DNA of 64,000 bases from Ricordea florida (Eukaryota; Cnidaria; Anthozoa; Corallimorpharia; Ricordeidae). The notes beneath the pieces are model-generated. The model was not told where the DNA came from, ran no database searches, and worked only from the letters and a program-made list of their open reading frames with translations. Below are positions 1 through 64,000 of this stretch, piece by piece; positions within the stretch are counted from its first letter, which is position 1, and the number at the start of each line of letters is the position of its first letter. The stretch covers positions 13,888,236 through 13,952,235 of the forward strand of contig OX453282.1 of assembly GCA_949710005.1 (NCBI GenBank), in the 5' to 3' direction. The position numbers and the translations under genes were made by a program.

Positions 1-2153
1 TAAACTAATTAGGGAAATATATAGTCTTATCAGGTAAATAGTTAGTGTAATCAGGTGTATAAGTGGGCAGATAAGACAAACCCATCAGGCAATAAGGAAA
101 ATAGATAGGCAAATTAGGCAGACATCATCTAATTAGATAAATACATCATATAATTAGAAAAATTTATAGTCTAATCAGGTAAATAGTTGTCACAATCATG
201 TACAAATAGATTAATTAGGCAAATACATAGACTATTTAGATAACAGAATAAACTAGTTAGATAAATAAATAATCTAATCAGGTAAAAGAACAGGCCAAAA
301 AGTTAAGCCCAAGAGCCAAATAATTAAATAGGCTAATCCGGTAAATACATAGACAAATAAATTAAGCATATATGCTTATTAAGTACATACACGAATTAAT
401 CAAGTAAAGTAATTAGGCAATCAGGTAAATAGACAAGCCAATTACCAAATTCATAAGCTAATCAGATAAATAGAAATACTAATTAGGAAAATATATAGGC
501 TAATCAGGGAAATAGATAGCCTAATCAGACATATAAATAGGCTAGTTAGGTAAACCTAACAGGCATTTAGGTAAATATATAGGCTAATTTGGAAAAGACA
601 GGCTAATTAGATAAAACGATAAACTAATGAGACTCATTAGGCAATTAGGTAAATAGATAGGCTAATTAGGACACTACATTGGCTAATTAGATAACTCTAC
701 AAACTAATTAGGGAAATGTATAGGTTAATCAGGTAATTAGTTATTGTCCAATCGGGTAAAAGAATAGGTTAATTAATAGGTTAATAAGATAAATGGATTA
801 ACTAATTAGTTAAATATATAGGCTAAGCAGGTAAATAGACTAATTTAGCAAATAAATAAGCTAATTAGACAAATAGATAAGCTTATTAGAAAGTTAAGCT
901 TATCATGTTTATAAATGGTCTGGTTAGGAAAACTCATAAGGCAATCAGGAAATAGAAAGGCTAATTAGGCAAAAACATACGCTAATTAGATAAATAGATA
1001 TACTATTTAGGGAAATATATAGGCTAGTCAGATAGATAGATAGGCTAGCCAGTTATGTAAGTAGGCTAATTAGGCAAAGAAATAGGCTAATTAGATAAAT
1101 AGATAAACTAATTAAACTGTGTATTCATTTGGCTGTTGGGCTTATTGCCTGATTACTTTACCTAATTAATCTGTAGATGTACCTGATAAGCATATATGCA
1201 TATATTTATGGCCGATTAGACTATAAATTTTCCTTATTAGTTCATCTGTTTATCTAATTAGCCTATGTCTTTGCCTAAATAGCCTATAGATTTACCTGAT
1301 TACCTTAGCAGTCTATCTGACTAGCCATTTATATACCTGATTACTCTAACTATTTCCCTAATTAGTTTACCCATTTACTTGATTAGCCTATATTCTTACC
1401 TAATTACTTTATCTATTTATATTAATAGCCTATGTATTTGCCTACTTGGCCTATCTATTTACCTTATTGAATGAAAACTCTACCTTTTTAATCTATGTAT
1501 GTGCTAGATTAGGATATATGCTTATTTTATTTGTCTATGTATTTACCGGATTAGCCTATGTATCCATTTATTAGACTGTTAGACTTGCCTGATTGGCCTA
1601 CTTATATACCTATTTAGCCTAACTATTCAGTTTATTAAACTACATACTTTTGTAATCAGATTATCGCTTTACCTAATCAGCCTATTTCTTTCCCTAATTA
1701 GCCTATCTAGTTACTTGATAACCTCATGGGTTTACCTGATTCGCCGGATTAGCCTTTGTATTTATTTATTTGGCCTATGGGCCTAGCTGATTGGCCCTAT
1801 TTATATACCTGCATAACTCATCCTTTTACCTGATTAGATTATATAATTATCTAATTTTTTATCTTTTTATCTAATTAGCCTATGCATTTGCCTAATTAAC
1901 CTATTTTTTAAGCCGTTTGGATCACTTATATATCTAACTAGCCTAACTTATTTACCTAATCAAACTTTATATTTTCTTAATTATTTCATCTTATTATGTA
2001 ATCAGCCTATGTAGGGTCTTAATTAGGCTAATTACTTACCTAATTGCCTGATGATTTTATGTAGTTTGCCCATCTATGTACTTGATTACCATACATGCTT
2101 ATTTCATTAGTTTAATTATTTCTCCCCGATTTGCGTATTTATTTGTCTGATTA
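1..2153. repeat. Satellite A block A1 (AT-rich, 20-22 bp monomers)
   Basis: This block is a degenerate tandem array of 20-22 bp monomers. Up to about 1,110 the plus strand reads as TAATTAGGTAAATAGATAGGC-like units (reverse polarity, R). After module P1 at 1,111-1,155 it reads as GCCTATNTATTTRCCTAATTA-like units (forward polarity, F). Recurrent landmarks are CTAATTAG, ATATATTT and GCCTGATGGG. The order of variant monomers after P1 matches the stretches after P2, P3 and P4, so this is part of a longer higher-order repeat and not random low-complexity DNA. The forward arm runs directly into junction J1. The window edge cuts the left end. I see no gene in it. Confidence 0.95.
1111..1155 (+). repeat. 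Module P1: R-to-F polarity switch in satellite A
   Basis: This is a conserved 45-bp stretch where the A monomers change from reverse to forward polarity. It holds ACTGTGTATTCATTTGGC followed by TGTTGGGCTTATTGCC. The same stretch recurs nearly unchanged at every other R-to-F switch in the window. Confidence 0.85.
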
Positions 2154-2314
2154 GCCTATCTTTTGAACTGATTAGCCTTTATATAGTATATAATACGTCT
2201 AGTAGGTTTGGTAGGCGCAGAAAAGGTTCAGTAGTTAGTGTATGACCCCGCAAAATGTCCTGCAATGTCAAGCATCTGGGCTTAAAAATAACTGTAGTGA
2301 ATTGGACAAACAGA
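2154..2314 (+). repeat. Junction element J1 (A to B boundary)
   Basis: This ~160 bp non-tandem element separates satellite A from the 9-bp satellite B. In order it holds the last A-like monomer, a TATA-like stretch (2,179-2,192), a G/C-richer core (GTAGGCGCAGAAAAG), a hairpin whose arms are GGTTCA (2,225-2,230) and TGACCC (2,243-2,248), and a short tail CTGGGCTTAAAA...GAATTGGACAAACAGAA before the first B unit. Here the left arm has one mismatch (GGTTCA for GGGTCA). Three further copies exist. An ATG at 2,255 opens a frame that runs into B, but the copies differ from one another only at amino-acid-changing sites. Confidence 0.9.
2179..2192 (+). promoter_or_regulatory. TATA-like stretch in J1
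   Basis: The sequence TTATATAGTATATA lies about 120 bp before the first B unit. It would place transcription start inside J and send it rightward into B. All four J copies keep the TATATAGTATATA core. A promoter role is inferred only; an AT-rich neighbourhood yields TATA-like matches easily. Confidence 0.3.
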
Positions 2315-2994
2315 AGTAGCTGCAGTAAGTGTAGTAAGTGTAGTAGCTGTAGTATGTGTGGAAGTGTAGTAAGTGTAGTAGCTGTAGTAAGTGTAGTAAG
2401 TGTAGTAGCTGTAGTACGTGTAATAGCTGTAGTAAGTGTGGTAAGTGTAGTAGCTGTAGTTGCTGTAGTAAGTGTAGTAGCTGTAGTAAGTGTAGTTGCT
2501 GTAGTAAGTGTAGTAAGTTTAATAGGTGTAGTAGCTGTAGTAAGTATACTAGCTGTAGTAACTGTAGTTGCTGTAGTAGCTGTAGTAAGTGAAGTAAGTG
2601 TAGTAAGTGTAGTAAGTGTAGTAGCTGTAGTAATTGTAATACCTGTAGTATCTGTAGTAAGTGTAGGATCTGTACTAAGTGTAGTGGCTGTAGTAGCTGT
2701 AGTAAGTGTAGTAAGTGTGGTACCTGCAGTATCTGTAGTAAGTATAGTAGCTGTAGTAAGTGTAGCATGTGTAGTAAGTGTACTACCTGTAGTAAGTGTA
2801 GTAAGTGTAGTAAGTGTAGTAGCTGTAGTAAGTGTAGTAGTTGTAGTAAGTGAAGTGGATGTAATAGCTGTAGTAAGTGTATTAAGTGTAGTAGCTGTAG
2901 TAAGTGTAGTAGCTGTAGTAGGTGTAGTAAGTGTAGTAGCTCTAGTAAGTGTAGTAAGTGTAATAAGTGTAGTATTTGTAGTAAGTTTAGTATG

Positions 2995-3020
2995 TGCAGT
3001 AGTACAGCTGTTAGAGCTAC
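2995..3020. repeat. Module delta1: plus-to-minus switch in B1
   Basis: This is the first polarity switch after J1, reading GCAGTAGTACAGCTGTTAGAGC. The same module follows J3 and, inverted, J4. In those copies it contains the perfect stem AGCTCT/AGAGCT. Here the stem has one mismatch. Confidence 0.75.
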
Positions 3021-5560
3021 AACACTTACTACACTTACTAGAGCTACTACACTCACTAGACTTACTCCAGCTACTACACTTACTGCAGATAGTACACTAC
3101 TGCACTTACTAAACATACTACAGCTACTACACTTACTAAATTTACTTTACTTACTACAGATACTACAGCTACTACAACGACTACACTTACTAAAGTTACT
3201 AGAGCTACTGCAGAAACTACACTTACTACACTTACTACAGCTACTACAGCTACTACACTTACTAAAGATATTACCCTTACTACAGCTACTACATTACTGC
3301 AGCTACTACACTCACTACAGATACTACACTTACTACAGCCACTACACTTACTGCACCTACTACACCATTTATAGCCACTACACTTACTGCGCCTACAACA
3401 CTTGCTACAGCCACTACACCTACTACACTTACAACTGCTACTACACTTACTACAGCTACTAGACCTACTACAGTTTTTACAGTTACTACAGCTACTCAGT
3501 TACTACAGCTACTACGTCTACTACAGACACTACAGGTACTACAGCTACTACACTTGCTACACATACTACACTTACTACAGCTACCACACCTACTACACTT
3601 ACTACAGCTACTACACTTACTACAGATACTAATGCTACTACACTTACTACAGATACTACACTTACTACAGTCACTACCCTTATTGCCCCTACTACACTAC
3701 TGCGGCTACTACACTTACTGCAGCCAGTACACTTACTACAGCTACTACAGCTACTACAGCTTGTAAACGTACTACACTTACAAGAAATACTACACTTACT
3801 ACAGCTCTTACACCTACTACTGATACTACAGGTACTGTAGATAGTACAGGTACAACAGCTACTCTACTTGCTACACTTACTACACTTAGTACATTTACTA
3901 AACTTACTACACTTACTACAGCTACTACACTTACTACACCTACTACAACTACTAAACCTACTCCAGTTGCTACAGCTATTACGGCTGCTTCAGCTACCTC
4001 ACCTAATAAAGATGTCACAGCTACAAAAGCTGCTACACAACTTCTATACTTAGTACAGCTACTACACTTACTACAGCTTCTACAGGAACTACAGCTTTTA
4101 CACGTAGTACACTTACTACAGCTACTGCAGTTACTACAGCTCATACTCTTACTACAGATACTACAGCTACTACACGTTTGATATTTACTACAGCAACTAC
4201 ACTTCCTACATTTACTACAGCTACTACACTTACTACAGTTACTACCGCTCCTACACTTACTACAGTTACTGCACTTACTAAAACTACCACACTTATTACA
4301 TCTACTACACTTACTAAACTTACTACACTTACTGCACCTACTATACTTGCTACAGCAACTACACTTACTACAGTTACAACAGCAACTTCACTTACTAAAT
4401 CTAATTAACTTATTACAACTACTACAGTTAGTGCACTTACTACAGCTACTACAGATACTACAGCTTTTACAGATACTACAGCTACTAAACGTACTAAAGC
4501 TGCAACACCCACTACACATACTACAATTACTACACTTACTACACCTAGTACAGCTACTACAGCTGCAACACTTACTACACATACTACAGCTACTACACTT
4601 ACTAAATCTCCTATTATCACTACAGCTACTACAGTTACTACAGCCACTACACTTACTACAGCTACTACACCTACTACACTTACTACACTTACTACAGCTA
4701 CTACACTACCTACAGCTACTACTGCTACTACAGATACTACAGGTTCTACAGCTACTACACTTGCTACACTTACTACAGCTACTACACTTACTACACTTAC
4801 TACAACTACTACATCTACTGCAGTTACTACATTTACTACGGCTACTACAGCTACTAGACCTAATACAGATGCTACAGCTACCAAACCTACTACACCTACT
4901 ACACTTAGTGCAGCTACTAGACTTACTACAGCTTCTCCACGTAGTACACTTATCACAGCTACTACAGTTACTACAGCTCTTACACTCACTATAGATACTA
5001 CAGCTACTACACGTCCTACACTTACTACAGCTACTACACTTACTACACTTACTAAAGCTACTACACTTACTACACTTACTACAGCTACTACAGCTTCTAC
5101 ACTTATTACACTTACTACAGTTACTACAGCTACTACACGTTCTACTTTTCCTACAGCTACTATACTTACTAAACTTACTACAGCTACTACACTTATTACA
5201 GATACTACACTTACTAAAGTTACTACACTTACTGCACCTACTGCACTTCCTACAGCTACTACACTTACTACAGCTCTTACACTTACTACTGATACTACAG
5301 CTACTACACGTTGTACACTTACTACAGCTACAATAGCTTCCACACTTACTACACTTATTACAGTTACTACAGCTACTACACTTTCTACTTTTACTACAGC
5401 TACTAAATTTACTACGCTTCCTACACCCACTACACTTACTGCACCTACACTTACTACACCTAATACATTTACTACACTTACTACAGCTACTACATTTACT
5501 AAACTTACTACAACTACTACACCTACTGCAGTTACTACAGCAACTACAGCAACTACAGCT

Positions 5561-5628
5561 ACTACAGTTGAAAAACCCTTACTACACATACTACAGTTAC
5601 TAAACTAAAGTTTAGTAGCTGTAGTAAG
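5561..5628. repeat. Module beta1: minus-to-plus switch in B1
   Basis: This conserved stretch has GTTGAAAAACCCTTACT, then CACATACTACAGTTACT, then an inverted repeat ACTAAACT-AA-AGTTTAGT (5,599-5,616) at the exact point where TACTACA units become TGTAGTA units. Confidence 0.8.
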
Positions 5629-7220
5629 TGTAGTAAGTAAAGTAGCTGTGGTTAGTGTAGTAAGCGGAGTAGCTGTAGTAAGTGTAGTAAGCGTAGTGGC
5701 TGTAGAAGCTGTAGTAAGTGTAGTGGCTTTAGTAAGGGTAGTGGCTGTAGTGATGGTACTAGATGTAGTAAGTGTAGTAGGTGTATTATGTGTAGGAAGT
5801 GTTGCCGCCTAAGTAGGTGTAGTAGGTGTATTAAGTGTAGTAACTGTACTATGTGTAGTAAGTGTTTTAGCTGTAATATCTGAGTAGCTTTAGTATCTGA
5901 AGTAACTGTAGTAAGGGCAGGAAAGTGTAGTTAGTGTAGTTAGTGTAGTAGTTGAAATAAGGTTAGTAGCTGTAGTAAGTGTAATAGCTGTTGTAACTGT
6001 AGTAAGTGTATTGGCTGTAGGAAGTGTAGTAGCTGTAGTAAGTGTAGTAAGTGTAGTAGCTGTAGTAAAGGTAGAACAAGTAGTAGCTTTAGTAGCTGAA
6101 GTAAGTGTAGTAAATGTAGAAGCTGTAGTAACTGTAGTGAGTGTAGTACTTGTAGTAAGTGTAGTAAGTTTTGTAGCTGTAGGATTTGTAGAACGTGTAG
6201 TAGCTTTAGTATCTCTAGTAAGTGTAAGAGCTGTAGTAACTGTAGAAGCTGTAGTAAGTGCAGAAGCTGAACTAAGTGTAGTAGGTGTAGTAGCTTTAGT
6301 AGCTGTAGCAACTGTATTAGGTGTAGTAGCTGTAGTTGCCGTAGTAGCTGTAGTAACTGCAGTAGGTGTAGTAGTTGTAGTAAGTATAGTAGCTGTTGTA
6401 AGTGTAGTAGCTGTAGTAAGTGTAGTAAGTGTAGCAAGTGTAGTAGCTGTAGTACCTGTAGTATCTGTAGTAGGCGTAGAAGCTGTAGCAGGAGTAGTAG
6501 CTGTAGTAACTGTAGTGGCTGTATTAACTGTAGTAGCTTTAGTTATGGAAGTAGATGTAGTAAGTGTAGTAGCTGCAGTATGTGTAGTAAGTGTTGCAGC
6601 TGTAGTAGTTGTAGTAAGTGTACTAAGTGTAGTAACTGTAGTATGTGTAGCAAGTGTTTCAGTTGCAGTAGCTTTAGTAGCTGTAGTATCTGTAACAGCT
6701 GTATTACCTGTAGTAGTCTAGTGGCTGTAGTAGCTCTAGTATGTGCAGTAAGTGTAGTAAGTGTAGTAAGTGTAGTAGTTGTAATTATTGTAGTACCTGT
6801 AGTAAGTGTAGTAGCTGTTGTAACTGTAGTAAGTGTACTGGCTGTAGCAGGTGTAGTACGTGCATTCAGTGTTGTTGTTGTATGAAGTGTAGTAGGCACA
6901 GTAAGTGTAGTGACTGTATTAAGTATAGTATCTGTAGTAAGTGTAGTAGCTGTCGTAAGTGTAGTAAGTGTAGTAGCTGTAGTAAAAAAAATCGTGTAGT
7001 AGCTCTAGGCACTGTAGTAAGTGTAGTAAGAGTACAATCTGCAGTAGCTGTATTAAGTGTAAAACGTGTAGTAGCAGTGGTATCTGTAGTAAGTGTACAA
7101 GCTGCAGTAAGTGTAGTAGCTAAAGTAAGGGTAGTACGTGTGGAAGCTGTAGTAGGTGTAGTAGCTGTAGTAAGTGTACTAGATGTAGTAAGTGTAGTTG
7201 GTGTACTAAGTGTAGTAGGT

Positions 7221-7260
7221 GTAGTAAGTATAGTAGCTGTAGCAGCTTACTACAGCTTCT
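7221..7260. repeat. Module alpha1: plus-to-minus switch in B1
   Basis: AAGTATAGTAGCTGTAGCAG is followed at 7,244 by CTTACTACAGCTTCT. The imperfect palindrome AGCTGTAGCAG/CTTACTACAGCT marks the turn. The TACAGGAACTACAGC-like sequence just after it is shared with other alpha copies. Confidence 0.75.
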
Positions 7261-8130
7261 AAAGGAACTACAGCTTTTACACGTTGTACACTTACTACAG
7301 CAACTACAGTTACTACAGCTCTTACACTAACTACAGATACTAGAGCTACTACACGTTCTACACTTGCTACAGCTACTTCACTTACTTAAATTACTACAGC
7401 TACTACACTTACTACAGTTATTACAGCTGTTACATTTACTACACTTATTACACCTACTACACCTACTACACTTACTACAGCTACTAAACTTACTTCACTT
7501 ATTACAGTTAGTACATATCATACATTTACTACACTTACTACAGCTACTACGGCTTCTACACTTATTACACTTACTACCGTTACTACAGCTACTACACGTT
7601 CTACTTTTGCTACAGCTACTACACTTATGACATTTACTACAGCTACTACACTTAGTACAGATATTACACTTACTACAGTCACTACACTTACTGCACCTAC
7701 TACACTTCCTATAGCCACTACACTTACTTCACCTACTAGACCTGCTACAGCCACTACACTTAGTACAGCCAATACACTTAGTATAGCTACTACACTTACT
7801 ACAGATAGTACACTTACTACAGCTACTACAGCTAGTACAGCTTCTACACGTACTACACTTACTACAGCTACTACACTTACTACAGCTCTCACACTTACTA
7901 CGGATACTACAGCTACTACACGTTCTACACTTACTACACGTACTACAGCTACTACACTTTTAACTTTTACTGCAGCTACTAAACTTACTACTTTTACTAC
8001 AGCTACTAAACTTACTACACTTCCTACACTAACTACACTTACTGCACCTACACTTACTACAGCTACTACATTTACTACACTTACTACAACTACTACACTT
8101 ACTGAAGTTACTACGACTACTACAGCTACT

Positions 8131-8185
8131 ACAGTTGAAAAACCCTTACTACACATACTAGAGTTACTACACTACAGTGTAGTTG
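8131..8185. repeat. Module beta2: minus-to-plus switch in B1
   Basis: GTTGAAAAACCCTTACT leads to a perfect inverted repeat ACTACACT-AC-AGTGTAGT (8,166-8,183) at the polarity turn. Confidence 0.8.
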
Positions 8186-10390
8186 CTCTAGTAAGTGTAG
8201 TAAGTAAAGTAGCTGTGATAAGTGTACTAAGCTCAGTAGCTATAGTAAGTGTAGTAAGCGTAGTGGCTGTAGTAGCTGTAGTAAGTGTAGTGGCTGTAGT
8301 AAGGGTAGTAGCTGTAGTGATGGTAGTAGATGTAGTAAGTGTAGTAGGTGTATTATGTGTAGAAAGTGTTGCCGCTTTAGTAGCTGTAGTAGGTGTAGTA
8401 AGTGTAGTAACTGTAGTATGTGTAGTAAGTGTTGTAGCTGTACTATCTGAGTAGCTGTTGTATCTAAAGTAGCTGTAGTAAGTGCAGTAAGTGTAGTTGT
8501 GTAGTTAGTGTAGTAGTTGAAATAAGATTAGTAGCTGTATTAATTGTGGTAGCTGTTGTAACTGTAGTAAGTGTATTGGCTGTAGCAAGAGTAGTAGGGC
8601 GAGTAAGTGTAGTGACTGTAAAAAGTGTAGTATCTGTAGTAAGTGTAGTACCTGTAGTAAGTGTAGTAAGTTTTATAGCTGTAGAAAGTGTAGAACGTGT
8701 AGTAGCTGTAGTATCTGTAGTAAGTGTAAGAGCTGTAGTAACTGTAGTAGCTATAATAAGTGTACTTCGTGTAGAAGCTGCAGTTCCTGTAGAAGCTGTA
8801 GTAAGTGTAGTAGCTGTACTAAGTGTAGTAGGTGTATTAGCCTTAGTAGCTGTAGCATCTGTATTAGGTGTAGTAGCTGTAGTAGCCGTAGTAGCTGTAG
8901 TAACTGCAGTAGGTGTAGTAGTTGTAGTAAGTATAGTAGCTGTAGTAAGTGTAGTAAGTGTAGTAGCTGTAGTAAGTGTAGTAATTGTAGCAAGTGTAGT
9001 AGCTTTAGTACCTGTAGTATCTGTAGTAGGCTTAGTAGCTGTAGCACGTGTAGTAGCTGTAGTAAGTGTAGTAACTGTAGTAGGTGCAGTAGCTTTGGAA
9101 GTGTAGTGGCTGTAGTAAGTGTAGTAGCTGTAGTTATGGAAGTAGATGTAGTAAGTGTAGTAGCTGTGGTATGTGTAGTAAGTGTAGTAGCTGTAGTAAG
9201 TGTATTAAGTGTAGTAGCTGTAGTAAAGGTAGAACGTGTAGTAGCTTTACTAGCTGTAGTAAGTGTAGTAAATGTAAAAGCTGTAGTAACTGTAGTAAGT
9301 GTAGTACCTGTAGTAAGTGTAGTAAGTTTTGTAGCTGTAGTAAGTGTAGAACGTGTAGTAGCTGTAGTATCTGTAGTAATGTAAGAGCTGTAGTAACTGT
9401 AGTAGCTGTAGTAAGTTTACTTCGTGTAGAAGCTGTAGTTCCTGTAGAGGCTGTAGTAAGTGTAGTAGCTGTACTAAGTGTAGTAGGTGTAGTAGCTTTA
9501 GTAGGTGTAGCATCTGTATTAGGTGTAGTAGCTGTAGTAGCCGTATTAGCTGTAGTAACTGCAGTAGGTGTAGTAGTTGTAGTAAGTATAGTAGCCGTAG
9601 TAAGTGTAGTAAGTGTAGTAGCTGTAGTAAGTGTAGTAACTGTAGAAAGTGTAGTAGCTGTAGTAAGTGTAGTAAGTGTAGCAAGTGTAGTTGCTGTAGT
9701 ACCTGTAGTATCTGTAGTAGGCGTAGAAGCTGTAGCAGGAGTAGTAGCTGTAGTAACTGTAGCGGCTGTATTAACTGTAGTAGCTTTAGTTATGGAAGTA
9801 GATGTAGTAAGTGTAGTAGCTGCAGTATGTGTAGTAAGTGTTGCAGCTGTATTAGCTGTAGTAAGTGTAGTAAGTGTAGTAACTGTAGTATGTGTAGTAA
9901 GTGTTGCAGTTGTAGTAGCTTTAGTAGGTGTAGTATCTGTAGCAGCTGTATTACCTGTAGTAGCTGTAGTGTCTGTAGTAGCTCTAGTAAGTGCAGTAAG
10001 TGTAGTAAGTGTAGTAAGTGTAGTAGTTGTAATAAGTGTAGTCGCTGTAGTAAGTGTAGTAGCTGTTGTAACTGTAGTAAGTGTAGTGGCTGTAGCAGGT
10101 GTAGTAGGTGCAGTCAGTGTTGTTGCTGTACGAAGTGTAGTAGGTACAGTAAGTGTAGTGACTGTAGTAAGTTTTGTAGCTGTAGTAAGTGTAGTAACTG
10201 TACAAGCTGCAGTAGCTGTATTAAGTGTAAAACCTGTAGTAGCAGTGGTATCTGTTGTAATGTAAGAGCTGCGGTAAGTGTAGTAGCTGAAGTAAGGGTA
10301 GTACGTGTGAAAGCTGCAGTAGCTTTAGTACCTGTATTAAATGTACTAGATGTAGTAAGTGTAGTAGCTGTACTAAGTGTATTAGGTGTA

Positions 10391-10440
10391 GTAAGTATAG
10401 TAGCTGTAGCAGCTTACTACAGCTTACTACAGCTTCTACA
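10391..10440. repeat. Module alpha2: plus-to-minus switch in B1
   Basis: AAGTATAGTAGCTGTAGCAG runs into CTTACTACAGC, turning near 10,412. This copy carries an extra CTTACTACAG unit compared with alpha1. Confidence 0.75.
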
Positions 10441-12084
10441 GGAACTACAGCTTTTACACGTTGTACACTTACTACAGCAACTACAGTTACTACAGCTCTT
10501 ACACTAACTACAGATACTAGAGCTCTTACACGTTCTACACTTACTACAGCTACTACACTTACTAATCTTACTACAGCTACTACACTTACTACAGTTATTA
10601 AAGCTCCTACATTTACTAATCTTACAACAGCTTCACAAAAACTACAGCTATTACACGTAGTGCACTTACTACAGCAACTACAGTTACTACGGCTCTTACA
10701 CTACTTACAGATACTAGAGCTACTACACGTTCTACACTTACTACAGCTACTACACTTACTACACTTACTACAGCTACTACACTTACTACAGTTATTACAG
10801 CTCCTACATTTACTACACTTACTACAGCTTCTACACTTACTACAGCTACTACACTTACTACAGTTATTACAGCTCCTACATTTACTACACTTACTACAGC
10901 TACTACACGTTCTACACTTACTACAGCTACTACACTTACTACACTTACTACAGCTACTAAACTTACTACAGTTATTACAGCTTCTACATTTACTACACTT
11001 ACTACAGCTACTACAGCTTCTACACTTACTACAGTTACTACATTTACTACAGCTACTACACGTTCTACTTTCACTACAGCTACTACACTTACTACACTTA
11101 CTACAGCTACTACACTTACTACAGCTAAAACACTTACTACACCTACTACAGCTACTACACTTACTGCAGCTACTACACTTACTACAGCTAGTACACGTAC
11201 TACAACTACTACAGCTACTACATCTTCTAAACGTACTACACTTACTACAGCTGCTACACTTACTACAGCTCTTACAGTTACTTCTGATACTAAACCTACT
11301 ACACGTTCTACACTTACTACAGCTTCAACATGTTCCACACTTACTACAGTAACTACAGCTACTACACGTTCTCCTTTTACTACAGTACTACACTTACTAC
11401 ACTTCCTACAGCTACTACACTTAATACAGATACTACACATACTACAGTCACTACACTAACTGCACATACTACACTTGCTAAAGCCTCTACACTTACTACA
11501 GTTATAACAGCTACTACACTTACTACCACCTCTACACTTATCACAGCTACTACAGCAACTACGCTTACTACACTTACTACAACTATTACACCTACTACAG
11601 TTACTACACTTACTACAGCTACTACACCTACTACAGTTACTACATTTACTGCAGCTACTACACTTACTACAGCTACTACAGCTACTACCCCTAATACAGA
11701 TACTACAGGTACTACAGCTACTGCAGAAACTTCAATTACTACACTTTCTACAGCTACTAAATTTTCTACACTTACTAAGGCTACTAGACGTACAACACTT
11801 ACTACAAATACTACGACTACTGCAGTTACTACAGCTACTATAGCAACTAGAGCTACTACACCTAATACAGCTGCTACAGCTACTATACCTATTACACCTA
11901 CTACACTTACTACAGCTACTACACTCACTACAGCTACTATAGTTACTACAGCCACTACACTTACTACAGCTACTACACCTACTACAGTTACTACACTTAC
12001 TACAGCTACTACACTTACTACAGCTACTATGCCTACTACATATACTACAGGTACCACAGCTACTACACTTGCTACACCTACTAC

Positions 12085-12125
12085 ACTTACTACAACAGCT
12101 GTAATAGCTGTAATATCGGTAGTAG
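12085..12125. repeat. Unclassified minus-to-plus switch in B1
   Basis: TACTACA units end at ACTACAACAGCTG and TGTAATA-type plus units follow. The palindrome CAGCTG (12,096-12,101) lies on the turn. It lacks the GAAAAACCC block of beta modules, so it looks like an independent breakpoint. Confidence 0.6.
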
Positions 12126-35980: not shown

Positions 35981-35996
35981 ACATAATCATTACATA

Positions 35997-47930: not shown

Positions 47931-47954
47931 CACTTGAGATAACAATAGGGCCAT

Positions 47955-51776: not shown

Positions 51777-51938
51777 TTCTTTTTGTCCAATTCACTACAG
51801 TTACTTTTAAGCCCAGATGCCCGACATTGCAGGACATTTTATGGGGTCATACACTAACTACTGACCCTTTTCTGCGCCTACTAAACTTACTAGACGTACT
51901 ATATACTATATAAAGGCTAATCAGTTCAAAAGATAGGC
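51777..51938 (-). repeat. Junction element J4 (inverted copy)
   Basis: This is the full J element on the minus strand, facing left into B4. Hairpin arms GGGTCA (51,844-51,849) and TGACCC (51,862-51,867) are intact. The TATA-like stretch is at 51,900-51,913. Relative to J3 it differs at only a few sites. Confidence 0.9.
51900..51913 (-). promoter_or_regulatory. TATA-like stretch in J4
   Basis: On the minus strand it reads TTATATAGTATATA, pointing leftward into B4. Function is inferred only. Confidence 0.3.
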
Positions 51939-52936
51939 TACTTAAAAAATAAATACGCAAATCGGGGAAAAATAATTAAACCAGTGAAATAAGCATGTAT
52001 GGTAATCAAGTACACAGATGGGCAATCTACATAAAATCATGAGGCAATTAGGTAAGTAATTAGCCTAATTAGGACCCTTCATAGGCTGATTACATAATAA
52101 GATAAAATAATTAAGAAAATATAAAGTTTGATTAACTAAATAAGTTAGGCTAGTTAGATATATAAGTGATCCAAACGGCTTAAAAAATAGGTTAATTAGG
52201 CAAACGCATAGGCTAATTAGATAAAAAGATAAAAAAATTAGATAATTATATAATCTAATCAGGTAAAAGGACGAGTTATGCAGGTATATAAATAGGGCCA
52301 ATCAAATTGGCCCATAGGCCAAATAAATAAATACAAAGGCTAATCCGGCGAATCAGGTAAACCCATGAGGTTATCAAGTAACTAGATAGGCTAATTAGGG
52401 AAAGACATAGGCTGATTAGGTAAAGCGATAATCTGATTACAAAAGCATGTCGTCTAATAAGCTGAATAGTTAGGCTAAATAGGTATATGAGTAGGTTAAT
52501 CAGACAAGCCCAACAGTCTAATAAACAAATACATAGACTAAAACGGTAAATACATAGACAAATAAAATAAGCATATATCCTAATCTAGTACATACATAGA
52601 TTAAAAAGGTAGAGTTTTCATTCAATAAGGTAAATAGATAGGCCAAGTAGGCAAATACATAGGCTATTAACATAAATAGCTAAAGTAATTAGGTACGAAA
52701 ATAGGCTAATCAAGTAAATGGGTAAACTAATTAGGGAAATAGTTAGAGTAATCAGGTATATAAATGGCTAGTCAGATAGACTGCTAGGGTAATCAGGTAA
52801 ATCTATAGGCTAATTAGGCAAAGACATAGGCTAATGAGATAAACAGATGAACTAATAAGGAAAATTTATAGTCTAATCGGCCATAAATATATGCATATAT
52901 GCTTATCAGGTACATCAACAGATTAATTAGGTAAAG

Positions 52937-52981
52937 TAATCAGGCAATAAGCCCAACAGCCAAATGAATACACAGTTTAAT
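52937..52981 (-). repeat. Module P5 (inverted copy)
   Basis: This is the reverse complement of P1 (GGCAATAAGCCCAACAGCC then AAATGAATACACAG) at an R-to-F turn. Confidence 0.85.
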
Positions 52982-54345
52982 TAGTTTATCTATTTATCTA
53001 ATTAGCCTATTTCTTTGCCTAATTAGCCTACTTACATAACTGGCTAGCCTATCTATCTATCTGACTAGCCTATATATTTCCCTAAATAGTATATCTATTT
53101 ATCTAATTAGCGTATGTTTTTGCCTAATTAGCCTTTCTATTTCCTGATTGCCTAATGAGTTTTCCTGACCAGACCATTTATAAACATGATAAGCTTAACT
53201 TTCTAATTAGCTTATCTATTTGTCTAATTAGCTTATGTATATGCTAAATTAGTCTATTTACCTGCTTAGCCTATATATTTAACTAATTAGTTGATCCATT
53301 TATCTTATTAACCTATTAATTAACCTATTCTTTTACCTGATTGGACAATTTATATACCTGACTAGCCTAACTAATTACCTGATTAACCTATACATTTCCC
53401 TAATTAGTTTATAGAGTTATCTAATTAGCCGATGTAGTGTCCTAATTAGCCTATCTATTTACCTAATTGCCTAATGAGTCTCATTAGTTTATCGTTTTAT
53501 CTAATTAGCCTGTCTTTGCCAAATTAGCCTATATATTTACTTATATGCCTGTTAGGTTTACCTAACTAGCCTATTTATATGTCTGATTAGGCTATCTATT
53601 TACCTGATTAGCCTATATAGTTTCCTAATTAGTATTTCTATTTATCTGATTAGCTTATGAATTTGGTAATTGGCTTGTCTATTTAACTGATTGCCTAATT
53701 ACTTGACTTGATTAATTCGTGTATGTACTTAATAAGCATATGTGCTTAATTTATTTGTCTATGTATTTACCGGATTAGCCTATTTAATTATTTGGCTCTT
53801 GGGCTTACCTTTTTGGCCTGTTCTTCTACCTGATTAGATTATTTATTTATCTAACTAGTTTATTCTGTTATCTAAATAGTCTATGTATTTGCCTAATTAA
53901 TCTATTTTTACATGATTGTGACAACTATTTACCTGATTAGACTATAAATTTTTCTAATTATATGATGTATTTATCTAATTAGATGATGTCTGCCTAATTT
54001 GCCTATCTATTTTCCTGATTGCCTGATGGGTTTCTCTGATCTGCCCACTTATACACCTGATTACACTAACTATTTACTGATAAGACTATATATTTCCCTA
54101 ATTAGTTTATCTAATTAGCCTATGTAATTGCCTAATTCGCCTACGTATTTAATTGATTGCCTGATGGGTTTATCTAGTTAGCCTATGTGTTTGCCTAATT
54201 AGCCTATCTATTTAACTGATTGCCTGATGGGTTTATCTAATGAGCCTTTTTATATAATTGATCACCCTAACTATTTACCTGATTAGACTATATATTTTCT
54301 TGATAAGCTCATCTATTAATCTAAATAGCCTATGTAATTGCCCAA

Positions 54346-54417
54346 TTCGCCTATCTGGCGAAGATCATAGCGTATCTAGAGTAATCATAGCGTAATGCAA
54401 ATGCATAGAGTAATCAG
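54346..54417 (+). repeat. Module Q6
   Basis: This is an intact 72-bp Q with a perfect hairpin, two ATCATAGCGTA repeats 20 bp apart and the octamer. Confidence 0.9.
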
Positions 54418-55670
54418 ATAAATAGATAAAGGAATTAGGTAAATATATAGAATAATTAGGTAAATATATAGGCTAGTTAGGCTAATACATAGGCTTATCC
54501 GATAAATAAATAAACTAATCAGGGAAATATATAGTGTAATCAGGTAAATAATTGGACTAATAAAGTATATAAATCGGCCAATTCGGTAAACCCATCAGGC
54601 AATCAGGTAAATCGGATAAGTAGGTTAAGTCTTTAGGTAAATATATAGGCTAATCAGTTAAAAAGATAGGCTAATCAGACAAATAAGTACGCAAATCGGG
54701 GAAAAATAATTAAACTAATGAAATAAGCATGTATGGTAATCAAGTACATAGATGGGCAAACTACATAAAATCATCAGGCAATTAGGTAAGTAATTAGCCT
54801 AATTGGGACCCTACATAGGCTGATTACATAAGAAGAGGAAATAATTAAGAATATATAAAGTTTGATTAGGTAAATAAGTTAGGCTAGTTAGATATATAAG
54901 TGATCCAAACGGCTTAAAAAATAGGTTAATTAGGCAAATGCATAGGCTAATTAGGTAAAAAGATAAAAATATTAGATAATTATATAATCTAATCAGGTAA
55001 AAGGATGAGCTAGGCAGGTATATAAATAGGGCCAATCAGCTAGGCCCATAGGCCAAATAAATAAATACAAAGGCTAATCCCGCGAATCAGGTAAACCCAT
55101 GAGGTTATCAAGTAACTAGATAGGCTAATTAGGGAAAGACATAGGCTGATTAGGTAAAGCGATAATCTGATTACGAAAGTATGTAGTCTAATAAGCTGAA
55201 TAGTTAGGCTAAATAGGTATATAAGTAGGCCAATCAGGCAAGCCTAACAGTCTAATAAATGGATACATAGGCTAATCCGGTAAATACATAGACAAATAAA
55301 ATAAGCATATATCCTAATCTAGCACATACATAGATTAAAAAGGTAGAGTTTTCATTCAATAAGGTAAATAGATAGGCCAAGTAGGCAAATACATAGGCTA
55401 TTAACATAAATAGATAAAGTAATTAGGTAAGAATATAGGCTAATCAAGTAAATGGGTAAACTAATTAGGGAAATAGTTAGAGTTATCAGGTATATAAATG
55501 GCGAGTCAGATAGACTGCTAAGGTAATAAGGTAAATCTATAGGCTAATTAGGCAAAGACATAGGCTAATGAGATAAACAGATGAACTAATAAGGAAAATT
55601 TATAGTCTAATCGGCCATAAATATATGCATATATGCTTATCAGGTACATCAACAGATTAATTAGGTAAAG

Positions 55671-55715
55671 TAATCAGGCAATAAGCCCAACAGCCAAATG
55701 AATACACAGTTTAAT
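55671..55715 (-). repeat. Module P6 (inverted copy)
   Basis: Identical to P5, 2,734 bp downstream. Confidence 0.85.
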
Positions 55716-57079
55716 TAGTTTATCTATTTATCTAATTAGCCTATTTCTTTGCCTAATTAGCCTACTTACATAACTGGCTAGCCTATCTATCTATCTGACT
55801 AGGCTATATATTTCCCTAAATAGTATATCTATTTATCTAATTAGCGTATGTTTTTGCCTAATTAGCCTTTCTATTTCCTGATTGCCTAATGAGTTTTCCT
55901 GACCAGACCATTTATAAACATGATAAGCTTAACTTTCTAATTAGCTTATCTATTTGTCTAATTAGCTTATGTATATGCTAAATTAGTCTATTTACCTGCT
56001 TAGCCTATATATTTAACTAATTAGTTGATCCATTTATCTTATTAACCTATTAATTAACCTATTCTTTTACCTGATTGGACAATTTATATACCTGACTAGC
56101 CTAACTAATTACCTGATTAACCTATACATTTCCCTAATTAGTTTATAGAGTTATCTAATTAGCCGATGTAGTGTCCTAATTAGCCTATCTATTTACCTAA
56201 TTGCCTAATGAGTCTCATTAGTTTATCGTTTTATCTAATTAGCCTGTCTTTGCCAAATTAGCCTATATATTTACTTATATGCCTGTTAGGTTTACCTAAC
56301 TAGCCTATTTATATGTCTGATTAGGCTATCTATTTACCTGATTAGCCTATATAGTTTCCTAATTAGTATTTCTATTTATCTGATTAGCTTATGAATTTGG
56401 TAATTGGCTTGTCTATTTAACTGATTGCCTAATTACTTGACTTGATTAATTCGTGTATGTACTTAATAAGCATATGTGCTTAATTTATTTGTCTATGTAT
56501 TTACCGGATTAGCCTATTTAATTATTTGGCTCTTGGGCTTACCTTTTTGGCCTGTTCTTCTACCTGATTAGATTATTTATTTATCTAACTAGTTTATTCT
56601 GTTATCTAAATAGTCTATGTATTTGCCTAATTAATCTATTTTTACATGATTGTGACAACTATTTACCTGATTAGACTATAAATTTTTCTAATTATATGAT
56701 GTATTTATCTAATTAGATGATGTCTGCCTAATTTGCCTATCTATTTTCCTGATTGCCTGATGGGTTTCTCTGATCTGCCCACTTATACACCTGATTACAC
56801 TAACTATTTACTGATAAGACTATATATTTCCCTAATTAGTTTATCTAATTAGCCTATGTAATTGCCTAATTCGCCTACGTATTTAATTGATTGCCTGATG
56901 GGTTTATCTAGTTAGCCTATGTGTTTGCCTAATTAGCCTATCTATTTAACTGATTGCCTGATGGGTTTATCTAATGAGCCTTTTTATATAATTGATCACC
57001 CTAACTATTTACCTGATTAGACTATATATTTTCTTGATAAGCTCATCTATTAATCTAAATAGCCTATGTAATTGCCCAA

Positions 57080-57151
57080 TTCGCCTATCTGGCGAAGATC
57101 ATAGCGTATCTAGAGTAATCATAGCGTAATGCAAATGCATAGAGTAATCAG
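57080..57151 (+). repeat. Module Q7
   Basis: Identical to Q6, 2,734 bp downstream. Confidence 0.9.
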
Positions 57152-58404
57152 ATAAATAGATAAAGGAATTAGGTAAATATATAGAATAATTAGGTAAATA
57201 TATAGGCTAGTTAGGCTAATACATAGGCTTATCCGATAAATAAATAAACTAATCAGGGAAATATATAGTGTAATCAGGTAAATAATTGGACTAATAAAGT
57301 ATATAAATCGGCCAATTCGGTAAACCCATCAGGCAATCAGGTAAATCGGATAAGTAGGTTAAGTCTTTAGGTAAATATATAGGCTAATCAGTTAAAACGA
57401 TAGGCTAATCAGACAAATAAGTACGCAAATCGGGGAAAAATAATTAAACTAATGAAATAAGCATGTATGGTAATCAAGTACATAGATGGGCAAACTACAT
57501 AAAATCATCAGGCAATTAGGTAAGTAATTAGCCTAATTGGGACCCTACATAGGCTGATTACATAAGAAGAGGAAATAATTAAGAATATATAAAGTTTGAT
57601 TAGGTAAATAAGTTAGGCTAGTTAGATATATAAGTGATCCAAACGGCTTAAAAAATAGGTTAATTAGGCAAATGCATAGGCTAATTAGGTAAAAAGATAA
57701 AAATATTAGATAATTATATAATCTAATCAGGTAAAAGGATGAGCTAGGCAGGTATATAAATAGGGCCAATCAGCTAGGCCCATAGGCCAAATAAATAAAT
57801 ACAAAGGCTAATCCCGCGAATCAGGTAAACCCATGAGGTTATCAAGTAACTAGATAGGCTAATTAGGGAAAGACATAGGCTGATTAGGTAAAGCGATAAT
57901 CTGATTACGAAAGTATGTAGTCTAATAAGCTGAATAGTTAGGCTAAATAGGTATATAAGTAGGCCAATCAGGCAAGCCTAACAGTCTAATAAATGGATAC
58001 ATAGGCTAATCCGGTAAATACATAGACAAATAAAATAAGCATATATCCTAATCTAGCACATACATAGATTAAAAAGGTAGAGTTTTCATTCAATAAGGTA
58101 AATAGATAGGCCAAGTAGGCAAATACATAGGCTATTAACATAAATAGATAAAGTAATTAGGTAAGAATATAGGCTAATCAAGTAAATGGGTAAACTAATT
58201 AGGGAAATAGTTAGAGTTATCAGGTATATAAATGGCGAGTCAGATAGACTGCTAAGGTAATAAGGTAAATCTATAGGCTAATTAGGCAAAGACATAGGCT
58301 AATGAGATAAACAGATGAACTAATAAGGAAAATTTATAGTCTAATCGGCCATAAATATATGCATATATGCTTATCAGGTACATCAACAGATTAATTAGGT
58401 AAAG

Positions 58405-58449
58405 TAATCAGGCAATAAGCCCAACAGCCAAATGAATACACAGTTTAAT
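58405..58449 (-). repeat. Module P7 (inverted copy)
   Basis: Identical to P5 at the start of copy 3. Confidence 0.85.
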
Positions 58450-59813
58450 TAGTTTATCTATTTATCTAATTAGCCTATTTCTTTGCCTAATTAGCCTACT
58501 TACATAACTGGCTAGCCTATCTATCTATCTGACTAGGCTATATATTTCCCTAAATAGTATATCTATTTATCTAATTAGCGTATGTTTTTGCCTAATTAGC
58601 CTTTCTATTTCCTGATTGCCTAATGAGTTTTCCTGACCAGACCATTTATAAACATGATAAGCTTAACTTTCTAATTAGCTTATCTATTTGTCTAATTAGC
58701 TTATGTATATGCTAAATTAGTCTATTTACCTGCTTAGCCTATATATTTAACTAATTAGTTGATCCATTTATCTTATTAACCTATTAATTAACCTATTCTT
58801 TTACCTGATTGGACAATTTATATACCTGACTAGCCTAACTAATTACCTGATTAACCTATACATTTCCCTAATTAGTTTATAGAGTTATCTAATTAGCCGA
58901 TGTAGTGTCCTAATTAGCCTATCTATTTACCTAATTGCCTAATGAGTCTCATTAGTTTATCGTTTTATCTAATTAGCCTGTCTTTGCCAAATTAGCCTAT
59001 ATATTTACTTATATGCCTGTTAGGTTTACCTAACTAGCCTATTTATATGTCTGATTAGGCTATCTATTTACCTGATTAGCCTATATAGTTTCCTAATTAG
59101 TATTTCTATTTATCTGATTAGCTTATGAATTTGGTAATTGGCTTGTCTATTTAACTGATTGCCTAATTACTTGACTTGATTAATTCGTGTATGTACTTAA
59201 TAAGCATATGTGCTTAATTTATTTGTCTATGTATTTACCGGATTAGCCTATTTAATTATTTGGCTCTTGGGCTTACCTTTTTGGCCTGTTCTTCTACCTG
59301 ATTAGATTATTTATTTATCTAACTAGTTTATTCTGTTATCTAAATAGTCTATGTATTTGCCTAATTAATCTATTTTTACATGATTGTGACAACTATTTAC
59401 CTGATTAGACTATAAATTTTTCTAATTATATGATGTATTTATCTAATTAGATGATGTCTGCCTAATTTGCCTATCTATTTTCCTGATTGCCTGATGGGTT
59501 TCTCTGATCTGCCCACTTATACACCTGATTACACTAACTATTTACTGATAAGACTATATATTTCCCTAATTAGTTTATCTAATTAGCCTATGTAATTGCC
59601 TAATTCGCCTACGTATTTAATTGATTGCCTGATGGGTTTATCTAGTTAGCCTATGTGTTTGCCTAATTAGCCTATCTATTTAACTGATTGCCTGATGGGT
59701 TTATCTAATGAGCCTTTTTATATAATTGATCACCCTAACTATTTACCTGATTAGACTATATATTTTCTTGATAAGCTCATCTATTAATCTAAATAGCCTA
59801 TGTAATTGCCCAA

Positions 59814-59885
59814 TTCGCCTATCTGGCGAAGATCATAGCGTATCTAGAGTAATCATAGCGTAATGCAAATGCATAGAGTAATCAG
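59814..59885 (+). repeat. Module Q8
   Basis: Identical to Q6, within copy 3. Confidence 0.9.
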
Positions 59886-61138
59886 ATAAATAGATAAAGG
59901 AATTAGGTAAATATATAGAATAATTAGGTAAATATATAGGCTAGTTAGGCTAATACATAGGCTTATCCGATAAATAAATAAACTAATCAGGGAAATATAT
60001 AGTGTAATCAGGTAAATAATTGGACTAATAAAGTATATAAATCGGCCAATTCGGTAAACCCATCAGGCAATCAGGTAAATCGGATAAGTAGGTTAAGTCT
60101 TTAGGTAAATATATAGGCTAATCAGTTAAAAAGATAGGCTAATCAGACAAATAAATACGCAAATCGGGGAAAAATAATTAAACTAATGAAATAAGCATGT
60201 ATGGTAATCAAGTACATAGATGGGCAAACTACATAAAATCATCAGGCAATTAGGTAAGTAATTAGCCTAATTAGGACCCTACATAGGCTGATTACATAAG
60301 AAGAGGAAATAATTAAGAATATATAAAGTTTGATTAGGTAAATAAGTTAGGCTAGTTAGATATATAAGTGATCCAAACGGCTTAAAAAATAGGTTAATTA
60401 GGCAAATGCATAGGCTAATTAGGTAAAAAGATAAAAATATTAGATAATTATATAATCTAATCAGGTAAAAGGATGAGCTAGGCAGGTATATAAATAGGGC
60501 CAATCAGCTAGGCCCATAGGCCAAATAAATAAATACAAAGGCTAATCCCGCGAATCAGGTAAACCCATGAGGTTATCAAGTAACTAGATAGGCTAATTAG
60601 GGAAAGACATAGGCTGATTAGGTAAAGCGATAATCTGATTACGAAAGTATGTAGTCTAATAAGCTGAATAGTTAGGCTAAATAGGTATATAAGTAGGCCA
60701 ATCAGGCAAGCCTAACAGTCTAATAAATGGATACATAGGCTAATCCGGTAAATACATAGACAAATAAAATAAGCATATATCCTAATCTAGCACATACATA
60801 GATTAAAAAGGTAGAGTTTTCATTCAATAAGGTAAATAGATAGGCCAAGTAGGCAAATACATAGGCTATTAACATAAATAGATAAAGTAATTAGGTAAGA
60901 ATATAGGCTAATCAAGTAAATGGGTAAACTAATTAGGGAAATAGTTAGAGTTATCAGGTATATAAATGGCGAGTCAGATAGACTGCTAAGGTAATAAGGT
61001 AAATCTATAGGCTAATTAGGCAAAGACATAGGCTAATGAGATAAACAGATGAACTAATAAGGAAAATTTATAGTCTAATCGGCCATAAATATATGCATAT
61101 ATGCTTATCAGGTACATCAACAGATTAATTAGGTAAAG

Positions 61139-61183
61139 TAATCAGGCAATAAGCCCAACAGCCAAATGAATACACAGTTTAAT
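61139..61183 (-). repeat. Module P8 (inverted copy)
   Basis: Identical to P5 at the start of copy 4. Confidence 0.85.
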
Positions 61184-62547
61184 TAGTTTATCTATTTATC
61201 TAATTAGCCTATTTCTTTGCCTAATTAGCCTACTTACATAACTGGCTAGCCTATCTATCTATCTGACTAGCCTATATATTTCCCTAAATAGTATATCTAT
61301 TTATCTAATTAGCGTATGTTTTTGCCTAATTAGCCTTTCTATTTCCTGATTGCCTAATGAGTTTTCCTGACCAGACCATTTATAAACATGATAAGCTTAA
61401 CTTTCTAATTAGCTTATCTATTTGTCTAATTAGCTTATGTATATGCTAAATTAGTCTATTTACCTGCTTAGCCTATATATTTAACTAATTAGTTGATCCA
61501 TTTATCTTATTAACCTATTAATTAACCTATTCTTTTACCTGATTGGACAATTTATATACCTGACTAGCCTAACTAATTACCTGATTAACCTATACATTTC
61601 CCTAATTAGTTTATAGAGTTATCTAATTAGCCGATGTAGTGTCCTAATTAGCCTATCTATTTACCTAATTGCCTAATGAGTCTCATTAGTTTATCGTTTT
61701 ATCTAATTAGCCTGTCTTTGCCAAATTAGCCTATATATTTACTTATATGCCTGTTAGGTTTACCTAACTAGCCTATTTATATGTCTGATTAGGCTATCTA
61801 TTTACCTGATTAGCCTATATAGTTTCCTAATTAGTATTTCTATTTATCTGATTAGCTTATGAATTTGGTAATTGGCTTGTCTATTTAACTGATTGCCTAA
61901 TTACTTGACTTGATTAATTCGTGTATGTACTTAATAAGCATATGTGCTTAATTTATTTGTCTATGTATTTACCGGATTAGCCTATTTAATTATTTGGCTC
62001 TTGGGCTTACCTTTTTGGCCTGTTCTTCTACCTGATTAGATTATTTATTTATCTAACTAGTTTATTCTGTTATCTAAATAGTCTATGTATTTGCCTAATT
62101 AATCTATTTTTACATGATTGTGACAACTATTTACCTGATTAGACTATAAATTTTTCTAATTATATGATGTATTTATCTAATTAGATGATGTCTGCCTAAT
62201 TTGCCTATCTATTTTCCTGATTGCCTGATGGGTTTCTCTGATCTGCCCACTTATACACCTGATTACACTAACTATTTACTGATAAGACTATATATTTCCC
62301 TAATTAGTTTATCTAATTAGCCTATGTAATTGCCTAATTCGCCTACGTATTTAATTGATTGCCTGATGGGTTTATCTAGTTAGCCTATGTGTTTGCCTAA
62401 TTAGCCTATCTATTTAACTGATTGCCTGATGGGTTTATCTAATGAGCCTTTTTATATAATTGATCACCCTAACTATTTACCTGATTAGACTATATATTTT
62501 CTTGATAAGCTCATCTATTAATCTAAATAGCCTATGTAATTGCCCAA

Positions 62548-62619
62548 TTCGCCTATCTGGCGAAGATCATAGCGTATCTAGAGTAATCATAGCGTAATGC
62601 AAATGCATAGAGTAATCAG
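62548..62619 (+). repeat. Module Q9
   Basis: Identical to Q6, within copy 4. Confidence 0.9.
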
Positions 62620-63872
62620 ATAAATAGATAAAGGAATTAGGTAAATATATAGAATAATTAGGTAAATATATAGGCTAGTTAGGCTAATACATAGGCTTAT
62701 CCGATAAATAAATAAACTAATCAGGGAAATATATAGTGTAATCAGGTAAATAATTGGACTAATAAAGTATATAAATCGGCCAATTCGGTAAACCCATCAG
62801 GCAATCAGGTAAATCGGATAAGTAGGTTAAGTCTTTAGGTAAATATATAGGCTAATCAGTTAAAAAGATAGGCTAATCAGACAAATAAATACGCAAATCG
62901 GGGAAAAATAATTAAACTAATGAAATAAGCATGTATGGTAATCAAGTACATAGATGGGCAAACTACATAAAATCATCAGGCAATTAGGTAAGTAATTAGC
63001 CTAATTAGGACCCTACATAGGCTGATTACATAAGAAGAGGAAATAATTAAGAATATATAAAGTTTGATTAGGTAAATAAGTTAGGCTAGTTAGATATATA
63101 AGTGATCCAAACGGCTTAAAAAATAGGTTAATTAGGCAAATGCATAGGCTAATTAGGTAAAAAGATAAAAATATTAGATAATTATATAATCTAATCAGGT
63201 AAAAGGATGAGCTAGGCAGGTATATAAATAGGGCCAATCAGCTAGGCCCATAGGCCAAATAAATAAATACAAAGGCTAATCCCGCGAATCAGGTAAACCC
63301 ATGAGGTTATCAAGTAACTAGATAGGCTAATTAGGGAAAGACATAGGCTGATTAGGTAAAGCGATAATCTGATTACGAAAGTATGTAGTCTAATAAGCTG
63401 AATAGTTAGGCTAAATAGGTATATAAGTAGGCCAATCAGGCAAGCCTAACAGTCTAATAAATGGATACATAGGCTAATCCGGTAAATACATAGACAAATA
63501 AAATAAGCATATATCCTAATCTAGCACATACATAGATTAAAAAGGTAGAGTTTTCATTCAATAAGGTAAATAGATAGGCCAAGTAGGCAAATACATAGGC
63601 TATTAACATAAATAGATAAAGTAATTAGGTAAGAATATAGGCTAATCAAGTAAATGGGTAAACTAATTAGGGAAATAGTTAGAGTTATCAGGTATATAAA
63701 TGGCGAGTCAGATAGACTGCTAAGGTAATAAGGTAAATCTATAGGCTAATTAGGCAAAGACATAGGCTAATGAGATAAACAGATGAACTAATAAGGAAAA
63801 TTTATAGTCTAATCGGCTATAAATATATGCATATATGCTTATCAGGTACATCAACAGATTAATTAGGTAAAG

Positions 63873-63917
63873 TAATCAGGCAATAAGCCCAACAGCCAAA
63901 TGAATACACAGTTTAAT
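63873..63917 (-). repeat. Module P9 (inverted copy)
   Basis: Start of the fifth, incomplete 2,734-bp unit. Confidence 0.85.
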
Positions 63918-64000
63918 TAGTTTATCTATTTATCTAATTAGCCTATTTCTTTGCCTAATTAGCCTACTTACATAACTGGCTAGCCTATCTATCTATCTGA

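Follow-up and report, generated by a model that had tools for sequence, protein, structure and literature searches.

The 64,000-bp stretch of Ricordea florida DNA analysed here (the window; positions 13888236-13952235 of contig OX453282.1, hereafter C11) is probably part of a putative (peri)centromeric satellite domain of C11 with chromosome-specific macro-repeats. Across the window, an AT-rich satellite with a 21-bp unit (A) is interleaved block by block with a satellite of 9-bp units (B), as a preliminary description of this DNA had claimed; Tandem Repeats Finder (TRF) and a 7-mer segmentation agree on the alternation. The blocks meet at two conserved boundary sequences, J (A to B) and E (B to A), and both satellites switch strand repeatedly. 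The concentration of the satellites near the centre of most chromosomes, together with the chromosome-specific macro-repeats, makes the domain look like a centromeric or pericentromeric satellite. A two-satellite cassette array with strand flips is known so far in Tribolium, and is found here in another phylum. The preliminary description was correct in its main point, a composite of two satellites with fixed junctions; the strand flips and the genome-wide position are additions of the present analysis.

The assembly comprises 537.8 Mb in 48 contigs. C1-C16, referred to here as chromosomes, measure 24.7-48.6 Mb each (C11, 28.96 Mb), and C17 just 86 kb. In a sample of contig ends (20 stretches of 300 bases, from 18 contig starts and 2 ends), telomere-type repeats are present at the sampled ends of C6 (its end), C9, C10, C13, C14 and C16, and a degenerate TTAGGG-rich repeat at that of C12; the remaining sampled stretches hold N or other sequence.

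The satellites concentrate near the middle of most chromosomes. A 33-mer pattern of B has 5,270 matches genome-wide, while reversed control patterns, including that of the 33-mer, give 0 matches. With intervals drawn from the pattern matches themselves, two further B patterns with complete lists place 67/69 and 83/85 of their matches in one interval per chromosome, and two others place 100/100 (196 in total) and 86/100 (111 in total) of the matches listed in the intervals. Among 100 matches listed for the 33-mer, which cover C1 and C2 only, 60 lie in the C2 interval, 23 in other parts of C2 and 17 on C1. Clusters of at least three B matches occur on 11 of the 16 chromosomes (C2, C3, C4, C5, C6, C7, C8, C10, C11, C13 and C16), with intervals of 0.08-0.78 Mb, and on C15 9 of 12 A matches lie at 13.43-13.54 Mb. 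The centres of these 12 clusters (11 of B and that of A on C15) fall at 0.41-0.65 of the contig, which fits metacentric or submetacentric chromosomes, those of C3 and C13 being submetacentric-like; the chance that 12 uniform positions are all this central is 5.9e-7, with limits set post hoc. Two coral karyotypes are, in the excerpts of the papers describing them, all metacentric and submetacentric, though of 14 pairs (PMC12355185, PMC9005458).

The A pattern has 335 matches; the 100 listed are all on C2, and other chromosomes may carry A. A is observed together with B on C2, C6 and C11, and also occurs on C15. On C2 (20.74-21.45 Mb) the two satellites are interleaved: 171 typed matches form 41 runs, and 0 of 20,000 shuffles give as few. 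The J pattern has no match in this C2 array, which repeats exactly at a shift of 131,042 bp. Repeat lengths differ by chromosome, being 131,042 bp on C2, ~28.6 kb on C5 and often ~20.4 kb on C6. In addition, three identical 33-base matches lie exactly 11,593 bp apart at C13:18834842-18858060, another chromosome-specific macro-repeat.

Orientation also varies between chromosomes. All 101 matches listed on C3 are on the minus strand and all 22 on C8 on the plus strand; C4 (60 matches), C10 (31) and C13 (10) change strand once, from minus to plus when read from left to right, and this polarity is the same whichever way the contig is read; and orientation is mixed on C2, C5, C6, C7 and C11. The single-axis loci are at C4:18.516-18.523, C10:13.752-13.912 and C13:18.701-18.835 Mb. 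At the C4 axis, one mirror point is common to two pairs of marker matches.

The composite array around the window occupies ~576 kb of C11 and its sequence was read in part: the detailed set of 294 kb comprises the window, C11:13.60-13.80 Mb and C6:16.10-16.13 Mb, and contains zero N, the window likewise having none. Blocks and orientations were called by 7-mer Viterbi segmentation with runs of <60 bases merged, and repeat units by TRF. J and E were compared over their full length in this set and three 8-kb edge loci, short and partial matches being left out. The features of the window, with blocks from segmentation and J and E copies from full-length matches, are as follows.

1-2311: A block 1, a module end; A minus at 1-1179 and A plus at 1180-2311 (also 21-bp TRF rows)
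2154-2330, plus strand: J copy 1 (A to B)
2312-13946: B block 1, 9-bp units; 7 orientation segments (+-+-+-+)
13861-14140, plus strand: E copy 1 (B to A)
13947-20763: A block 2; 5 orientation segments
20606-20782, plus strand: J copy 2, 93.8% identity to J copy 1
20764-30871: B block 2; 9 orientation segments
30791-31070, plus strand: E copy 2, 95.7% identity to E copy 1
30872-36154: A block 3; 6 orientation segments
35997-36173, plus strand: J copy 3, 96.0% identity to J copy 1
36155-47015: B block 3, left of an insert; J end in plus direction
47016-48825: non-satellite insert of 1.8 kb in B block 3 (segmentation state O)
48826-51906: B block 3, right of the insert; J end in minus direction
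51762-51938, minus strand: J copy 4, inverted, 94.3% identity to J copy 1
51907-64000: A block 4; tandem of a ~2.73 kb A minus/A plus inverted pair (also self-BLAST)

J (177 bp) is present in full at the three plus-strand places first reported, and the inverted copy reported at 51,777 falls inside J copy 4; E recurs as the conserved right-hand boundary in two full matches. The junctions are indeed fixed, since all 27 full-length copies (14 J, 13 E) share one order and polarity. That J, E and the sequences next to them recur in the same arrangement on both C6 and C11 indicates that the composite was amplified as a unit, in agreement with the proposed duplication of a whole J-B-E-A module. The amplification is not clean: module length and direction vary, and B blocks are collinear over only about half. 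Specifically, the super-repeat of 15-18 kb described previously holds within the window (J-to-J distances of 18.45 and 15.39 kb); outside it, spacing is variable. B blocks 1 and 3 are collinear, as described, but over 52% of B block 1 (88.7% identity) rather than most of its length, counting stretches of >=100 bp and >=85% identity; the corresponding values are 48% for blocks 1 and 2 and 44% for blocks 2 and 3.

B block 3 is bounded by J on both sides (35997, plus; 51762, minus), and these flanking copies on opposite strands imply that two modules meet head to head within the block. The 1.8 kb insert sits in this same B block, within which the module direction changes; its 124-aa open reading frame (ORF) has no match in a Pfam search. 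In A block 4, the repeats are ~99.4% identical (54641-64000 against 51908-61266 in self-BLAST, 99.37%). The 10-mer ATTGGACAAA occurs in both J copy 1 and E copy 1, which are dissimilar in other respects; it is absent from E copy 2, and its presence in both may be chance. Part of J resembles, by eye, neither A nor B. A comparison of A with B over one pair of 1.28-kb stretches reveals no sequence relationship (local score of 25, matched by 30 of 60 two-base-block shuffles), and a common origin was rejected, there being no signal above shuffles in that pair. A protein-coding reading of B was also rejected: the 9-bp unit is open in 5/6 frames, which accounts for the long ORFs on both strands of B.

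The preliminary description had named single occurrences of J and E as an outcome that would speak against the composite; the assembly contains many copies of both. A 27-mer J pattern with <=3 mismatches has at least 34 genome matches, 25 on C11 (13.64-14.20 Mb) and 9 on C6 (16.03-16.40 Mb), a lower bound given a more diverged copy at C6:16.044 Mb. E is scored at >=40 places, 23 on C11 and 17 on C6. The E-to-E spacing on C6 is 15.4-29.7 kb plus one interval of 48.1 kb, and 6 of the 16 intervals measure 20.2-20.5 kb; any unscored E would make an interval look longer. Comparison of J-centred 1.7 kb segments (13 of 14; one ran past its locus) gives 82.9-100% mutual identity on C11. The segment at C6:16401226 is 85.9-96.1% identical to the C11 copies, and that at C6:16110473, the A side of which carries a 1.1 kb non-satellite stretch, only 62.6-82.5%. 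C6 and C11 most likely share one ancestral A-J-B-E cassette. On C11, a shift of 55,352 bp pairs near-identical copies, with J-centred segments 100.0 and 99.7% identical, indicating that the amplification is partly recent.

Within the blocks, both satellites switch strand, typically every 1-2 kb. The 294 kb contain 138 switches: 30 B(-,+), 30 B(+,-), 39 A(-,+) and 39 A(+,-). Runs of B have a median of 2.0 kb (plus) and 1.7 kb (minus) and a maximum of 3.97 kb, and runs of A medians of 1.4 and 1.2 kb and a maximum of 2.0 kb; the shortest runs kept are 0.1-0.3 kb. None of the 20 complete blocks on C11 and C6 is free of flips. The segment count is odd in 18 of them, which is what a constant polarity at the two ends of a block would produce. 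Of the 27 segmented A/B borders, 26 conform to this polarity; the exception is the border at J copy 3, where the final segment of A block 3 (35896-36154) contains an (ATTAATA)n microsatellite. Plus and minus totals are near balance, for B at 43,543/38,974 (C11:13.6-13.8 Mb), 17,763/17,922 (window) and 9,047/9,205 (C6), and for A at 33,337/38,207, 13,804/12,695 and 4,639/5,998, respectively.

The flip sites recur at the sequence level. At an 85% clustering threshold, the 39 A(+,-) sites form clusters of 38 and 1, the sole outlier being on C11, so that the main cluster takes in C6; the 39 A(-,+) sites form clusters of 24, 8, 5 and 2. The 30 B(+,-) sites fall into clusters of 11, 9, 4, 3, 2 and 1, and the 30 B(-,+) sites into clusters of 10, 7, 6, 2, 2, 1, 1 and 1, with C6 sites also present in the largest B(-,+) cluster and the two largest B(+,-) clusters. 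Local hairpins were rejected as a general property of flip sites: two of five tested sites have a better fold than any of 200 shuffles (z of -3.4 and -2.5), and at the other three 30, 23 and 48 of 200 shuffles are equally good. Fresh perfect palindromes were likewise rejected, the best 40-bp arms averaging 42-63% identity by site kind (maximum 80%; values given without a shuffled baseline).

The nearest described system is that of Tribolium madens, in which the major and minor satellites TmSat1 and TmSat2 form macro-dyad cassettes (PMC13081366, cited here and below from excerpts). There, two satellites are intermingled; subarrays several kb long run in opposite orientation, and the sites at which they invert are highly conserved; the minor satellite usually has one of two conserved transition zones on each side; and the cassettes sit in putative (peri)centromeres. 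Intermingling, opposite subarrays near balance, recurring flip sites and conserved transition zones are all found on C6 and C11; the Tribolium cassettes occupy putative (peri)centromeres on every chromosome, while here B clusters are observed on 11/16 and A on C15, with no large cluster on C1, single matches on C9 and C12 and none among those listed on C14. The differences are considerable. Besides belonging to another phylum, A and B are unrelated, whereas TmSat1 and TmSat2 derive from a shared 110-bp ancestor, and the units are 21 and 9 bp as against 225 and 704 bp. Part of J looks extrinsic by eye, whereas the Tribolium zones are described without extrinsic elements; intervals are 0.08-0.78 Mb instead of multi-Mb, and some chromosomes here are one-directional; and repeat lengths are chromosome-specific, whereas T. 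madens monomers are described without pronounced contig-specific clustering (PMC13081366). According to the same excerpts, macro-dyad arrays are documented only in Tribolium, and the authors suggest that the way repeats are organised (macro-dyad symmetry) could outweigh sequence; among the best-matching literature, the term 'macro-dyad' is met only in PMC13081366. The likeness, which is one of organisation, suggests a parallel case, with nothing pointing to common descent.

Fission yeast centromeres also have large inverted repeats, one core being flanked by two arms, but unlike here no dozens of flips inside satellites. Along human Yq12, the satellites DYZ1 and DYZ2 alternate. DYZ1 (HSat3) and DYZ2 (HSat1B) are, as here, two unrelated satellites of one heterochromatic domain, which unlike here is confined to one chromosome, has Mb blocks and is non-centromeric, and for which the excerpted source mentions no fixed cassette in which internal inversion sites recur (PMC12240836). 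In corals, fluorescence in situ hybridisation (FISH) markers of centromeres are MA-13C for chromosome 13 of Micromussa (PMC12355185) and FP-9X for chromosome 9 of Favites (PMC9005458). Each is likewise a sequence marking the centromere of a single coral chromosome, a likeness by description, and in contrast to the present case the excerpts describe no satellite array or composite for them. No centromeric satellite array is described in the excerpts of the coral literature surveyed, and three satellite sequence strings have no match in literature text.

We propose that the domain is built of B, near the middle of most chromosomes, and of A, which joins B on C2, C6 and C11. The cassette would have spread through unequal exchange and segmental duplication within the centromeric region, and may have been exchanged between C6 and C11. 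We hypothesise that the flips are functional, acting through cruciforms or hairpins or through double-stranded RNA (dsRNA): with its alternating orientation, the array could fold into large dyad structures or, if transcribed, give rise to dsRNA, and either might contribute to establishing or maintaining (peri)centromeric chromatin.

Several observations weigh against a centromeric domain of this kind. C1, the largest chromosome, has just 17 B 33-mer matches, scattered over 7 places, and lacks a large cluster. C9 and C12 have one mid-chromosome B match each among the matches listed and none in the complete lists, in which C14 has no B match and C15 has A only. B also occurs at arm loci, for example C1:46.37, C2:35.25 and 36.14, C6:24.15, C10:4.30 and C11:6.21 Mb. 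Within individual blocks the two strands are more uneven than overall, reaching ~1.7 to 1, and the one-strand matches on C3 and C8 suggest that flips are not needed everywhere. Putative centromeres of Atlantic Acropora are tied, in the excerpted report, to peaks of long interspersed nuclear elements (PMC11577847). Finally, pericentromeric heterochromatin next to the actual centromere would explain the position just as well.

Some of these points suit a non-centromeric macrosatellite or heterochromatic knob, which we regard as unlikely though a serious competitor: B would expand in low-recombination regions without a centromere role, and A would be captured on some chromosomes and then amplified through unequal crossing-over. 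The lack of a large array on C1 and the arm loci agree with such a history, and the different repeat lengths of C2, C5 and C6 are what drift and local homogenisation predict; a single near-central cluster on 11/16 chromosomes plus A on C15 (5.9e-7 under uniformity, post hoc), C3 and C13 included, argues against it. An assembler could also have produced the module order, the flips and the long exact copies from two real satellites, and exact copies such as those at 131,042 bp on C2 and at the 55,352-bp shift on C11 are of a kind that assemblers can misplace. Such a partial artefact is improbable: flips are mostly 1-4 kb apart, inside one long read, J and E of C6 differ from those of the window by 7.3 and 3.9%, the flip-site clusters at the 85% threshold mix C6 and C11 copies, and the 294 kb are free of N. 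Foldback elements have inverted arms made of short tandem repeats, and part of J is unlike A or B by eye, but an origin by transposition of a giant or foldback-like element, since decayed, whose arms were inverted tandem repeats is very improbable, as J copies were found only in the local arrays of C6 and C11, not dispersed, and the open frames of the 9-bp unit account for the long ORFs of B.

Centromere DNA evolves rapidly and follows no known common sequence rule. If the (peri)centromeric assignment is correct, interleaved satellites, fixed cassettes and alternating strand may tentatively be seen as an animal (peri)centromere architecture that arose independently in cnidarians and beetles, with organisation kept over sequence; this possibility, which we hold with some reserve, would extend to unrelated sequences and to units down to 9 bp. 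A second, unrelated case in an anthozoan would, if true, make the idea of organisation over sequence testable across phyla, and this genome offers natural contrasts in one-strand arrays (C3, C8), single-axis dyads (C4, C10, C13) and multi-axis composites (C6, C11). For this group, the array also provides FISH probes and a candidate satellite of the centromere.

The array and its surroundings contain further inserts and genes. At C11:13683241-13700162, an A block holds a 17 kb insert with many ORFs, one of them a poxvirus A32-type packaging ATPase (PF04665, E 7.7e-12); its 1,541-aa and 558-aa ORFs have no Pfam match. Just outside the array, C11:13603106-13618656 carries a similar gene set with a weak capsid match (PF16903, 18.7 bits; cut-off 24), and we take both to be Polinton/Maverick-like. 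A 4.3 kb insert in a B block (C11:13753532-13757872) has one 1,294-aa Ty1/copia-type ORF with RVT_2 (E 7.1e-78), gag and integrase domains in Pfam. In addition, C11 carries a large GFP-like family (PF01353) at 8.97-19.75 Mb, several members in close series: PF01353 has 61 exon matches in this genome, 57 of them on C11, and matches in 0 of 14 control genomes. For one GFP-like exon, the closest solved proteins include Azami Green, EosFP and ancestor reconstructions, all from corals.

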